Part shown: in pieces, positions 15,166 through 19,275 of the stretch
Position numbering within the stretch: position 1 is the first letter of the stretch
Layout: every line of letters starts with the position of its first letter
From: Pseudomonas rhizosphaerae
Lineage (GTDB): Bacteria; Pseudomonadota; Gammaproteobacteria; Pseudomonadales; Pseudomonadaceae
Direction: 5' to 3'
DNA: 64,000 nt
NCBI RefSeq assembly: GCF_000761155.1
Contig: NZ_CP009533.1
Coordinates: 62,001 to 126,000 of the forward strand
Program-made: the position numbers and the translations under genes
Notes under the pieces: model-generated
Databases searched by the model: none
What the model saw: the letters and a program-made list of their open reading frames with translations, nothing else
What the model was told of the DNA's origin: nothing

Positions 15166-16812
15166 ATGCAAACCGCCTACACCGTGCTGATTCTGTTGAT
15201 GCTGGTCGGCGTTTCGCGGTTGCTCGCCCGCGTCATTCCCCTGCCATTGCCCTTGCTGCAGATCGCGGCCGGGGCCATTCTCGCCTGGCCGACACTAGGT
15301 CTGCACGTGGCGCTCGAGCCTGAACTGTTCCTGTTTCTGTTCCTGCCGCCACTGCTGTTTTCCGATGGTTGGCGCATCCCCAAGCGTGACCTGTGGCATT
15401 ACCGCGGCCCCGTATTGATGCTGGCGGTGGGCCTGGTGCTGTTCACGGTGCTGGGGGCGGGGTACTTCATTCACTGGTTGCTGCCCGACATCCCGCTGCC
15501 GGTGGCCTTTGCCCTGGCTGCCGTGCTGTCACCGACCGATGCGGTGGCGGTGTCGGCCATCGCCCAGGACCGCTTGCCAACGCCACTGATGCGTATCCTT
15601 CAGGGCGAAGCGCTGATGAACGATGCCTCGGGCCTGGTGACCTTCAAGTTTGCCCTGGCGGCAGCGATCACCGGCGTGTTCTCCCTGGCCGATGCCAGTG
15701 TCACGTTCGTCCTGGTGGCGGTCGGCGGCCTGGCATTGGGCGTGCTGCTGAGCTGGGTGGTGGGGCGCCTGCGTGTCTGGATGATCGCGCGCGGCTGGGA
15801 CGATCCGGCCACCCATGTGGTGTTCATGCTGTTGCTGCCGTTTGCCGCCTATGTGCTGGCCGAGCGCCTGGGTGCCTCGGGCATCCTCAGCGCGGTGGCC
15901 GCCGGCATGATGCAGAGCTGGCTGGACCTGCTGCCCCGGCAGACCCGCACGCGCATTCTCAACCGCAGCGTCTGGGCGCTGCTGGAGTTCGCCTTCAACG
16001 GTTTGATCTTTCTGCTGCTCGGCTTGCAGTTGCCAGACATCGTCAAGGCGGTGCTCAGCCACGAACCGACGCTATGGCCGGCGCTGTCGTGGCGCTGCCT
16101 GGAGGTACTGGCGATCTTCGGGGTCTTGCTGGCGCTGCGCTTCGTCTGGGTCCAGAGCACCTGGCGGGCGATGACGTGGATACGCCGCCTGCGCGGCAAG
16201 GCCACCATCACCCGGCTGCCCGACGCCCGCTCGTGCGCCTTGCTGACCCTGGGGGGTGTGCGCGGCGCGGTGACCCTGGCCGGTGTCATGTCGGTGCCTC
16301 TGTTGATGGCACCCGGTCAGGACTTCCCCCAGCGTGACCTGCTCATCTTCATCGCCGCCGGCGTCATCCTGCTGTCGCTGGTAGTGGCCTGCATCGCCTT
16401 GCCTCTGTTGCTGCGTGGCATGGCCGCCAGCGATGACCAGGGCGCACGCCAGGAGGTGCGAGATGCCTGGCGCTACACCGCCGAATCGGCCATTCGCTCG
16501 CTGGAAGAGGAAGACCCGGCGCAGAAGGCCAACGAACAGGATGCCAGCCAGGCGGCACTGGCGACCGAGCTCAAGGCGCGGATCATGTCCGAGTACCGGC
16601 AGCAACTGGAGGTGTTCGAGGACTCCGCCGAAGCCCAGGCACTGGCCCGGCAGATGGATCAACTCGAACGCCACCTGCGGATCAAGGCGCTGCGCGCGCA
16701 ACGCCTGGCGCTCTATGAAATGCGCCGCGAACGCCGGATCGGCGACGATGCCGTGCGCGAGGTGCTGGCCGAGCTGGACCTGAACGAAGCCAACCTCGGC
16801 CACGGACGCTGA
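15166..16812 (+). CDS. CPA1-type Na+/H+ antiporter with charged C-terminal tail
   Basis: A 548-residue membrane exchanger with about 12 hydrophobic segments. LSPTDAVAVSAIAQ holds the ion-binding Thr-Asp unit and GEALMNDASGLVTF holds the NDA motif of the CPA1 (NhaP/NhaA-like) family. A later loop, CALLTLGGVRGAVTLAG, carries the conserved Arg. After about residue 425 the protein becomes a soluble charged helical tail (RSLEEEDPAQKANEQ ... QMDQLERHLRIKALRAQRL) that probably senses pH or ions or binds a partner. The last 29 residues strongly resemble the end of the SOS-box protein at 18149. AAAGGAAG precedes the ATG. Confidence 0.9.
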   Translation: MQTAYTVLILLMLVGVSRLLARVIPLPLPLLQIAAGAILAWPTLGLHVALEPELFLFLFLPPLLFSDGWRIPKRDLWHYRGPVLMLAVGLVLFTVLGAGYFIHWLLPDIPLPVAFALAAVLSPTDAVAVSAIAQDRLPTPLMRILQGEALMNDASGLVTFKFALAAAITGVFSLADASVTFVLVAVGGLALGVLLSWVVGRLRVWMIARGWDDPATHVVFMLLLPFAAYVLAERLGASGILSAVAAGMMQSWLDLLPRQTRTRILNRSVWALLEFAFNGLIFLLLGLQLPDIVKAVLSHEPTLWPALSWRCLEVLAIFGVLLALRFVWVQSTWRAMTWIRRLRGKATITRLPDARSCALLTLGGVRGAVTLAGVMSVPLLMAPGQDFPQRDLLIFIAAGVILLSLVVACIALPLLLRGMAASDDQGARQEVRDAWRYTAESAIRSLEEEDPAQKANEQDASQAALATELKARIMSEYRQQLEVFEDSAEAQALARQMDQLERHLRIKALRAQRLALYEMRRERRIGDDAVREVLAELDLNEANLGHGR

Positions 16813-16833: not shown

Positions 16834-17991
16834 CTAGCGCAGCGAGCCTGGAAGGTTCTGGATATCACTGGCGCCGGTAGGAATCTCGATGGCAAACACG
16901 GTGCCCGCTTCCGCACTCGAAGTGACGTCTATGCGCCCCTGATGTGCGCTCACGATTTCGGAAGCGATGAACAACCCCAGACCCAGGCTGGCATGCGGCC
17001 CTTTTTCGGCCATTGCGTCGGGTGAGTACCTGCCCAGCGGATTGAAGATGGACTCAAGGACGTGTTCGGGGATGACAGCACCGGTGTTGTGAACCGTTAA
17101 GCGGAGTTTAGCGCCGCTGGAGTCCAGCGCCACATTAACGGGCGCGCTGGGATCTCCGTGTTGCAGAGCGTTGCCGATGAGGTTGGAAAACACCTGTTCC
17201 AGGCGCGCTGCGTCGTACAGGCCGACAGCACTGCTGGGGCTCTCCACGACTATTGTCGCGGTCGGGTTGACCATGCGCAGCTCTTCGACGACGCGGTCAA
17301 GCGCAGGCGCCGCATCGCTCATCGTCTTCGACACCGGCAGACCAGGGCCCAGTTGGGATCGAGTGAAATCCAGCAGGTCGCCGACAATGCGCGAGGCGCG
17401 CTTCACGCTGGTGTAGATCCGCGAGGTGATCTTGGTGGCGCGGGTACTCAGATCATCCGTTCGCAGCAGCGCGTCCGCGCCCAGCATGATCGCACCCAGC
17501 GGCGTACGCAGATCATGTCCCAATATGCCCAGAAAGACGTTTCGCGAGGCTTGTACGGCCTGAGTGTAGCTGGCCACGGATTCGGCCAGGGCCTGGTCGA
17601 TCGCCTCGTTGAACCGAATCATGTCCTCGACATCGATTTCGGCGTTTTCGCTGGCGTTGCTCAACCACTGCTTGATGACGCTGGCGCGCAGTGCGCGAAA
17701 TTCGGCGACGACCTGCTCGATGGTGAATCCGGAAAGCAGCCTGGCGATGGCATGTGTACGGGCGGCGGTGTCATCGTCCTGTTCGCCGTGTCCCTGGGAC
17801 TTCTCGGTCTGCTCCTGGCTCGACTGCTGGGTGCGCAGATCCTCGGCAATGGTCTGCAGCATCAAGTACGCGTGATCCCTGAGGTCTTCACGATTGAGCG
17901 GCGTGCCTGGGGTTTCCAGGGTTCGGGCAAAATCTTCCCAGGTTTGCAGGATGGGTTCGATATTCTTGAGGATGAAGTCTGACAGGCGCAT
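16834..17991 (-). CDS. Soluble orphan sensor histidine kinase with RsbRD-like N-terminal region
   Basis: A 385-residue kinase with no membrane segment. Residues 1-145 are helical and resemble the RsbRD N-terminal (sensor) domain (FILKNIEPILQTWEDFARTL ... EQVVAEFRALRASVIKQWL). HisKA follows with phospho-acceptor His159 in ILGHDLRTPLG. The HATPase has the N box NLIGNALQHG (Asn274), a G1-like HNTGAVIPE and G2 ASLGLGLFIASEIV. The sequence supports autokinase activity, but no receiver domain or response regulator gene lies nearby, so the partner must be elsewhere. It converges on the antiporter (21-base gap) and diverges from the SOS-box gene. AAGGAA precedes the ATG. It is probably a stress-responsive regulator, signal unknown. 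Confidence 0.88.
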   Translation of the reverse strand: MRLSDFILKNIEPILQTWEDFARTLETPGTPLNREDLRDHAYLMLQTIAEDLRTQQSSQEQTEKSQGHGEQDDDTAARTHAIARLLSGFTIEQVVAEFRALRASVIKQWLSNASENAEIDVEDMIRFNEAIDQALAESVASYTQAVQASRNVFLGILGHDLRTPLGAIMLGADALLRTDDLSTRATKITSRIYTSVKRASRIVGDLLDFTRSQLGPGLPVSKTMSDAAPALDRVVEELRMVNPTATIVVESPSSAVGLYDAARLEQVFSNLIGNALQHGDPSAPVNVALDSSGAKLRLTVHNTGAVIPEHVLESIFNPLGRYSPDAMAEKGPHASLGLGLFIASEIVSAHQGRIDVTSSAEAGTVFAIEIPTGASDIQNLPGSLR

Positions 17992-18103
17992 GAAGACGGA
18001 TTCCTTGTCATGAAGCCCCAGATGGCACCTCGGTCCAAGGATTAAACCATCAAGGGCCGGCTCGCGCTCGGATAACCTAGGGATTGATCACACGCCTTTG
18101 CTT

Positions 18104-18131
18104 GGGTTACTGTATATGCATACAGTAACCC
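18104..18131 (+). promoter_or_regulatory. LexA (SOS) box in a 28-bp palindrome
   Basis: The core CTGTATATGCATACAG (18110-18125) fits the CTG-N10-CAG LexA consensus. It is extended to perfect 12-base arms, GGGTTACTGTAT and ATACAGTAACCC, around ATGC. A candidate -35 TTGCTT (18098-18103) and -10 TACAGT (18121-18126) with a 17-base spacer would be covered by bound LexA. The gene at 18149 begins 17 bases downstream. The box at recA in this window has the same CTG-N10-CAG form. Confidence 0.88.
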
Positions 18132-18148
18132 ACGTGAGGTCTTGCCCC

Positions 18149-18478
18149 ATGCTCAGATTATCCAAACTGTGGACGGCCATCGGTAGCGCCATACCCGTTA
18201 CCGTTGGTTCTGCCCTCGGTGGGCTGGGATTGGTCGATTTCAACACGATGCTGGCGATTGCGCTCATGCCGCAGGTGGTTTTCCTGGTCATCGGGCAGTG
18301 GCCCGATTTCCAGCAGACCAGCGACGAGCAGGTGTGGGACGAATACGAATTCGAGCACCTGCCCCGATATGTAGTGCGCCCCGTGGTGCGCCGACAGCGC
18401 CGGATGGGCGGTCAGGCGATGAACGAAGCGCTGGCCGGCTTCGACATGAACGACGCCCACCTCGGTCACGGACGTTAG
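18149..18478 (+). CDS. Small SOS-box-controlled membrane protein of unknown function
   Basis: A 109-residue protein. Two hydrophobic segments (about residues 7-29 and 32-50) are joined by a short VDF turn, followed by an acidic linker (DFQQTSDEQVWDEYEFEH) and a basic tail (RPVVRRQRR) ending LGHGR. This gives a hairpin anchor with a cytosolic or periplasmic tail. The last 29 residues match the antiporter end at 17 of 29 positions. GAGGT sits 8 bases before the ATG; an upstream in-frame ATG at 18098 would lie before the LexA box and has no ribosome site. DNA damage should induce it. I do not recognise the family; a SulA-like division inhibitor, a small toxin-like membrane protein or an antiporter modulator are all possible guesses. 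Confidence 0.78.
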   Translation: MLRLSKLWTAIGSAIPVTVGSALGGLGLVDFNTMLAIALMPQVVFLVIGQWPDFQQTSDEQVWDEYEFEHLPRYVVRPVVRRQRRMGGQAMNEALAGFDMNDAHLGHGR

Positions 18479-19209
18479 GCGATAACCTTGGGGTAGATGC
18501 GCCGGGCGAACGCGCGGTCGCGGCGACTCAAGGTGTGGTTGATGCCCACTTCCCAATCACCGACCGTCTGCTCCTGCAGCACCGCGTAATGCATGATCGA
18601 GGTCCGGTCGTAGGCCGTGCCCTTGGCCAGTGCCTTGTCGGTCTTGTCCAGCAGGTTGAGGTCGACGGTCTGTCGATCGATGCCCTTGGCTGCGAAGTAG
18701 GCATACAGTTCAGGGATGTCCCACGGGATGTTCGCCTTGGGGTGTTGGTGCTCGTGCAGCAACCCCAACACATGACCGAATTCGTGCAGCACCGTGCGCC
18801 CGAACAATGGATCGTCCGGTTTGGTGCTCAAGGCCATGGTTGCATCCATCGGACTGACCAGCAGCGCATCGGTGCCGACATGACTGTGGTTGTCATCGCC
18901 GCCGGTATAGATGCGGATGTCGGCAAAAGCGCCGTCGACGAAATCGAACTTCAGGTTGGCCGAGCGTAGCCACTGCCGGGCCACTTTCTCGATGGCGGCC
19001 TTGTGTTCGGTGGGCGTGTCGTTGAAAAAGCCGATGGTCAGCGTACGACCGGGTGCCCAGAACTTCGAGAACTGGCCCACGGCGCGTTTGGAGCGTCCGC
19101 CCGCGGAAACGTGCAGCGCATTGTCTGGGCGTTCGGCCAGCGCAATACGGTGTGACGCTTCGAAATCAATGGCAGGAAGGGGCTTGCAGAACAGTAGATC
19201 GCACATCAT
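18475..19209 (-). CDS. Astacin-like (M12-type) zinc metallopeptidase
   Basis: A 244-residue protein with a metzincin domain. The zinc site is HEFGHVLGLLH (His142, Glu143, His146, His152) and the Met-turn is SIMHY (Met206, Tyr208), the arrangement of the astacin/M12 group. RTLTIGFFND near residue 55 and DIRIYTGG near 97 are the preceding strands. No convincing signal peptide is present, so its cell location is unclear. GGAG at a 6-base spacing favours the ATG at 19209 over the GTG at 19233. Its stop codon overlaps the stop of the SOS-box gene on the other strand (TTAG). It may act on host-cell or external proteins. Confidence 0.82.
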   Translation of the reverse strand: MMCDLLFCKPLPAIDFEASHRIALAERPDNALHVSAGGRSKRAVGQFSKFWAPGRTLTIGFFNDTPTEHKAAIEKVARQWLRSANLKFDFVDGAFADIRIYTGGDDNHSHVGTDALLVSPMDATMALSTKPDDPLFGRTVLHEFGHVLGLLHEHQHPKANIPWDIPELYAYFAAKGIDRQTVDLNLLDKTDKALAKGTAYDRTSIMHYAVLQEQTVGDWEVGINHTLSRRDRAFARRIYPKVIA

Positions 19210-19275
19210 CGATGACTCCGTGAAAAGAGCCACCCATGATGTCGATCAAACGCCCGGCAAAGGCGTAGCTATGTG

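Follow-up and report, generated by a model that had tools for sequence, protein, structure and literature searches.

Small membrane proteins under SOS control are known from several bacteria. SidA of Caulobacter and SosA of Staphylococcus have a single membrane segment, and TisB of E. coli is much smaller than the 56–109 aa of the proteins described here. YneA of Bacillus also has a single membrane segment, and a late-division block by small integral membrane proteins is described as widespread in the SOS response (PMC13396833). TisB is a LexA-controlled depolariser of the inner membrane, and tisB is kept locked by an inhibitory leader structure and by the RNA antitoxin IstR-1 (PMC11575346). 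For P. aeruginosa, a 2026 review counts ~15 genes in the LexA regulon, mostly repair functions together with inducible polymerases (PMC13114513).

Here we describe a gene for a small membrane protein that lies just downstream of a consensus LexA box in a 64 kb window, by which we mean the whole stretch of DNA analysed (G000:C1:62001-126000, where G000 is the source genome, a single contig of 4.685 Mb). Like SidA, YneA and SosA, its product is a small integral membrane protein under SOS control, in this case by prediction. Searches through Pfam, NCBIfam and PDB sequences matched it to no curated family or solved chain, and it differs from these three proteins in having two hydrophobic segments where they have one and in sharing its genome with sulA. 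It resembles TisB of the TisB/IstR-1 system as a small hydrophobic protein with predicted LexA control, but it is 56–109 aa long, has two segments, a short leader and an ordinary ribosome site, and an antisense RNA was not found. The LexA of this genome is of the same type as that of P. aeruginosa, and the available parts of two accounts of that ~15-gene regulon, which includes PA0922, do not mention the small gene (PMC13114513, PMC8944484). A full-text literature search on small membrane proteins and the LexA-driven SOS response of Pseudomonas, covering few subscription papers, likewise returned no description of it. We take the protein as a putative new family of a kind already known, the SOS-controlled small membrane proteins. 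If this is true, the SOS response of Pseudomonas species has gained lineage-specific membrane effectors outside the ~15-gene list.

Table 1 Features of the small gene and its surroundings, in window coordinates
Feature	Position	Strand	Evidence
LexA (SOS) box core TACTGTATATGCATACAGTA	18108..18127	.	20 bp; 0/18 mismatches; 0-2 in this gene and 4 intact close homologues
Full 12+4+12 palindrome	18104..18131	.	Sequence; outer 4 bp per side vary among relatives
Ribosome-binding site GAGG, 9 nt 5' of ATG	18136..18139	+	Sequence; GAGG also at this position in G064 and G270
Small membrane-protein gene, 109 aa	18149..18478	+	ORF; dN/dS 0.21 vs G064, 0.17 vs G270
Conserved core, residues 1-55	18149..18313	+	Two hydrophobic segments, short turn VD(F), end GQWPDF
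3' end of small gene (last 30 residues and stop)	18386..18478	+	Homologous to antiporter 3' end; 67/93 nt
Na+/H+ antiporter 3' end, sister copy of the tail	16720..16812	+	Pfam Na_H_Exchanger 2.1e-67
RsbRD_N-type histidine kinase, divergent	16834..17991	-	Pfam
Astacin-type (M12A) metalloprotease, convergent	18475..19233	-	ORF; Pfam Astacin 5e-8; 4-bp end overlap with small gene

The sequence-only reading of this locus had reported a near-ideal LexA box with 12-base arms, and the palindrome is indeed exact, running GGGTTACTGTAT-ATGC-ATACAGTAACCC with both 12-bp arms perfect. We scored the box against TACTGTATAT-NN-ATACAGTA, the E. coli-type consensus, and the inner 20 bp agree with it at all 18 fixed bases; across the window this score gives a single place with 0 mismatches, the next best having 5. 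A scan of the 64 kb with CTGTATATNNATACAG similarly has its sole 0-mismatch place at 18110-18125, where the sequence is CTGTATATGCATACAG; the reverse reading of CTGTATATGCATACAG has 2 mismatches and the sole other place has 3. In the whole 4.685-Mb genome, CTGTAT-N4-ATACAG occurs exactly at 5 sites and with at most 2 mismatches at 72 places (50 of the 72 being among the matches listed), compared to 24 for a reversed control pattern. One simulated genome of equal length, drawn from a first-order Markov model, had no sites with 3 or fewer mismatches to the 18 fixed bases and two with 4. The outer arms differ between relatives, GGGTTA/TAACCC in G000 as against TGTGTA/TAACTC in both P. baltica MBT-2 (G064) and Pseudomonas sp. 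286 (G270), and we therefore restrict the LexA box to its 20-bp core: the perfect arms stand, but their outer bases are not conserved. The suggestion that the box lies over a likely promoter stays unproven, as a sigma-70 pattern scan of the region found 0 promoters, with 0.4 expected by chance.

One protein of the genome, 202 aa long, scores above the NCBIfam LexA cut-off (TIGR00498). Its best match of 21 PDB sequences is 8s7g_A, 'LexA repressor' (E 4.8e-111), the LexA chains 1jhh and 1lea also match it, and its N-terminal half contains SPNAAEEHLKAL, which we take to be the DNA-reading helix. A LexA of this canonical type gives the cell an ordinary reader for the box. There is a LexA-like site 10 nt upstream of the lexA start, and sulA lies downstream of lexA. 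The LexA-like sites in this genome at lexA, recA, uvrB and an SRAP gene have 6, 5, 2 and 2 mismatches of 18, respectively, so the box of the small gene, with 0, fits the consensus better than those of lexA and recA; recA and the SRAP gene were identified via Pfam and uvrB by eye.

Homologues of the small gene were drawn solely from searches of whole genomes, genome contigs, viral contigs, phages and plasmids, and they are rare. A single-sequence search, own genome included, found it in 2 of 57 relatives and in 4 of 398 genus genomes, a rarity which argues that the gene is not part of core physiology. An alignment search of 398 family genomes (E <= 0.01) also found four, G000, G270, P. japonica 66C3 (G686) and G306, the last a weak match that belongs to a more distant branch described below. 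In the GTDB genome collection, a scan that possibly leaves out the source genome itself, the only relatives among 33 candidate stretches were those of P. baltica MBT-2, Pseudomonas sp. 286 and P. japonica 66C3; an earlier single-sequence scan of genome contigs gave no relatives among 86 candidate stretches. No members were found outside the genus: the draws from the order (1 of 189 genomes) and the class (1 of 180) each recovered the source genome only, and the family draw had members in 1 of 19 genera.

Far from being absent in all close homologues, which the sequence-only reading had named as evidence against its idea, the box is present in all 4 intact ones found. It has 0 mismatches in G000, G064 and G270, 1 in G686 and 2 in a further genome, G023, and the distance from box to ATG is 23 nt in four of the five, including G000, the exception being G023 with 50 nt. 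The G064 and G270 genes are very close (dS 0.13) and so count as one lineage, which brings the total to ~4 independent lineages. Box and gene occur together at three different loci, namely the antiporter-metalloprotease interval in G000, G064 and G270, a place elsewhere in G023 and, in G686, a place next to a gene for endonuclease I. The upstream neighbour also varies, being the histidine kinase in G000 and an FAD oxidoreductase in G064 and G270. Because the box stays constant while the neighbour changes, we assign the box to the small gene.

This variation bears on the possibility that the palindrome is no LexA site, or that it serves the divergent histidine kinase, whose start is on the opposite strand at a distance of ~110 nt. 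The ORFs next to the box at the relatives' loci L009, L010, L011 and L031 do not include the kinase; no kinase ORF is seen there in G064, G270, G023 or G686, and the box nevertheless remains with the small gene. The kinase is thus not the conserved target of the box, and we rejected the box as a kinase control site; we regard this alternative as barely credible. A near-consensus box upstream, a matching LexA encoded in the genome and a box kept in 5 of 5 intact genes instead make us confident in predicting that the small gene is under LexA control. The sequence-only reading had raised the possibility of a new member of the Pseudomonas DNA-damage response; with boxes in 4 homologues and one canonical LexA, we would now say that the gene is very probably such a new part.

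The 109-residue ORF with its own ribosome site, as originally proposed, also holds up, with an ATG start codon, a ribosome-binding site and dN/dS ratios (Table 1) that are all in place. The protein is 75% identical to those of G064 and G270. Substitutions relative to G064 are unevenly spread along the gene, with dN 0.07 and dS 0.92 (dN/dS ~0.08) for residues 1-55, dN 0.30 and dS 0.77 for residues 56-78, and dN 0.22 and dS 0.53 for residues 79-109, a pattern that indicates a real protein with the core as its constrained part. The constrained unit is a ~55-aa core under strong purifying selection, which we read as two helices, and in an alignment of five sequences 26 of its 56 columns are invariant. 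The P. japonica protein is only 56 aa long, stopping at GEWPDFGT, which suggests that this version represents the minimal unit, and it offers a 56-residue form that is easily tested. The 54-aa C-terminal extension of the window protein is lineage-specific and probably dispensable for core function.

That the product is a two-helix membrane protein, as had been proposed, is a reading based on hydropathy and on a structure model. Hydropathy is high nearly throughout residues 10-54, with maxima near residues 11-29 and 31-49 that are barely separated, and an AlphaFold2 model from a 4-row alignment places helices at 3-25 and 31-48 with low confidence (pLDDT 48.9). The predicted helices carry charge only at D30, in the turn, and in basic residues at the extreme N-terminus, which suggest an N-in/C-in topology. 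The protein had been called unrecognised, and profile searches of the family libraries now bear this out: none of the small proteins has an above-chance match in Pfam, NCBIfam, PHROGs, PADLOC or the profiles of PDB sequences. Weak names, among them HEPN_SAV2148, SecM_small and LeoBC, were dismissed as chance matches.

A small hydrophobic protein under predicted LexA control could be a membrane-active toxin of the TisB kind, its hairpin inserting after SOS induction and leaking the membrane to bring on dormancy, and a consensus box would fit a harmful product. However, the 23 nt between box and ATG and the ordinary ribosome site leave no room for a TisB-type lock, the ~70 bp between the previous gene and the box in G064 offer little space for an antisense RNA gene, and the one Rfam match is far under its gathering score. 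Moreover, the only charges in the predicted helices are D30 in the turn and the extreme N-terminal basic residues. We consider such a toxin unlikely, and rejected a TisB/IstR arrangement on the 23-nt interval, the ~70 bp in G064 and the lack of any Rfam family over its gathering score.

Further Pseudomonas genomes encode relatives of ~60 aa with the pattern MRGLEKF...GFWGM..IMMLPN, which a profile of the core (A3) picked up at E 7.9e-6 at best. Profile-profile comparison joins the close and distant branches with a probability of 96.9 (E 1.9e-10), and a reverse profile search finds G023, G000 and G064, the three E-values being, in increasing order, 5.6e-7, 7.0e-7 and 7.9e-6. The reverse search matched 8 of 249 genomes, one of which, G165, was rejected because its locus (L107) is a stop-interrupted chance frame. 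At E <= 0.1, 64 genomes matched the core profile, from which we kept four members of the close (SOS) branch and nine distant loci (L032, L038-L044 and L051); 12 loci among the weak matches were inspected, and L048, L050 and L054 were judged chance frames. The distant branch shares the homologous core with the small gene but differs in its lack of a LexA-like box, in a C-terminus that is basic in most members and in the apparent GTG starts of several. The strict pattern CTG-N10-CAG is found in the 400 nt before the frame at 0 of the 9 distant loci, and of two further distant loci, L108 shows only a poor match at a distance of ~400 nt, and L114 lacks one within ~1 kb upstream.

The size and predicted layout of the protein, two segments with both ends inside, would also suit a holin-like or pinholin-like hairpin, a domesticated phage part that acts in lysis or release after damage. 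Two of 9 family members match a PHROG called holin (phrog_2877), and one distant-branch member, L114, is on a contig listed as viral (1 of 50 distant-branch candidates from viral contigs; 0 of 44 for the SOS branch). The best of the holin E-values is only 0.058, though, which is at chance level, and the window protein itself has no PHROG match. Phage and plasmid records gave no match to the family, and no endolysin or other phage gene was recognised among the neighbours by eye or through Pfam. A holin-like role appears very unlikely to us.

The source genome contains, besides the intact gene, a decayed second copy of the core (L003, G000:C1:1583822-1586938, at 1501-1626), which the box count excludes; it has no good box, only poor CTG-N10-CAG sites, and shows that the gene can be lost. 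A gene for endonuclease I (Pfam 7.2e-25) is found ~1 kb from L003, and another (2.8e-48) neighbours the intact copy of P. japonica (L031), in a different orientation. The rare and patchy distribution, the decay of L003, the less constrained tail (dN 0.22-0.30) and the 0 of 9 boxes in the distant branch could all mean that LexA controls a protein that matters little, inherited in patches, with a damage-inducible promoter and a mild role in envelope stress. Against this stand the low dN/dS of the core compared to G064 (~0.08) and a box that is near consensus in each lineage, and we consider it unlikely.

The end of the C-terminal extension has a different history from the core. An Na+/H+ exchanger-type antiporter is encoded ~1.4 kb upstream of the small gene, and the last part of the small gene is identical to its 3' end at 67 of 93 nt; no other place in the window, on either strand, has more than 48. 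At the protein level, residues 79-109 match the antiporter C-terminus with E-values of 4.3e-5 in G000, 1.5e-5 in G270 and 7.1e-4 in G064. The tail is homologous to the antiporter C-terminus, and the small gene is thus a chimera. The tail is nearer to antiporters of its own clade (57-67 of 93) than to four others compared, those of G017, G007, G016 and G003 (45-53), so the donor was probably the local gene; the G023 and G686 proteins have no antiporter-like tail, which points to a local addition. The gene is a record of how a chimeric protein arose, probably through capture of a neighbour's 3' end.

Within the range checked, a long ORF converges on the antiporter gene in 13 of 16 other genomes that encode the antiporter, and none was found in the remaining 3. 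The convergent ORF is metalloprotease-like in 6 (G017, G016, G005, G011, G019 and G021) and, by eye, dapC-like in 7. The 4-bp overlap with the metalloprotease end suggests that the small gene may sit where the antiporter gene once had its 3' end. The neighbours in the window are the Na+/H+ exchanger, the kinase, the metalloprotease and an aminotransferase (Pfam), followed by a glnD-like gene (by eye). The antiporter-metalloprotease interval (window 16834-18478) is variable in content: G000 has the kinase gene in it, G064 has genes of the LysR, ABC-transport and FAD-oxidoreductase types, and G270 has ORFs similar to those of G064; in six other relatives it measures tens of bases or less.

How might such a protein act? 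We hypothesize a single-gene SOS unit in which the hairpin is a membrane checkpoint effector beside SulA, a reading that we judge to be evenly balanced and for which the spread of membrane proteins that stop late division in the SOS response speaks (PMC13396833). LexA bound at 18108-18127 would repress the gene, DNA damage would trigger RecA-driven self-cleavage of LexA and thereby derepression, and the short-leader mRNA could be translated immediately. These steps rest on established SOS biology and on the computed evidence, in which we include the box and its conservation, the purifying selection, the chimeric tail, and the presence of canonical LexA and SulA. The product would be a small inner-membrane hairpin of ~55 aa, N-in/C-in, with the last part of its C-terminal extension probably captured from the neighbouring antiporter gene. 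The hairpin could then act within the membrane, in addition to SulA, most likely on a membrane partner in the division or wall-synthesis machinery reached via its Gly/Ala-rich first helix. Induction and the topology, target and effect of the hairpin are what we infer here.

We found sulA in 11 of 11 genomes examined, among them all 5 with the small gene, and therefore rejected the idea that the small gene replaces SulA. This coexistence, together with the apparent lack of a TisB-type lock and a Gly/Ala-rich first helix that would favour packing against other helices, makes us lean, with modest confidence, to a partner-binding effector over a pore. The same coexistence also counts against a checkpoint role, because a cell with SulA does not need a second division inhibitor, and so do the two membrane segments here compared to the single one in the SOS membrane inhibitors known to us. 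A bolder version of the checkpoint reading, which we consider doubtful, is that the box and the minimal 56-aa hairpin form a portable SOS cassette that settles at various loci, sometimes borrows the 3' end of the host gene behind which it inserts, and serves as a second damage checkpoint, based in the membrane, beside SulA, with a fold class unseen among SOS effectors.

Several other LexA-like sites in G000 lie close to genes. At L015 (G000:C1:2368594-2371609), an exact CTGTAT-N4-ATACAG box at 1501-1516, which departs from the longer consensus at 4 of 18 bases, is followed 44 nt later by an ORF (1561-2529) whose product resembles the replication-terminus-binding protein Tus (Pfam Ter 2.1e-10), possibly an SOS-controlled relative of Tus. 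Two related proteins, MDIEDEAFGCLGIPTEAQIWKQ... at L019 (G000:C1:1953204-1956219) and MDREEEDFGCLGVPTEAQMWKQ... at L026 (353820-356835), each begin shortly downstream of a LexA-like site, with 2 mismatches of 18 at the former and 4 at the latter; the L019 protein has no Pfam family, and the pair are perhaps another small SOS family. Exact CTGTATGTACATACAG sites are also present at L014, beside a repressor gene with HTH and S24-peptidase domains, and at L016, beside a gene with a sub-threshold HATPase match.
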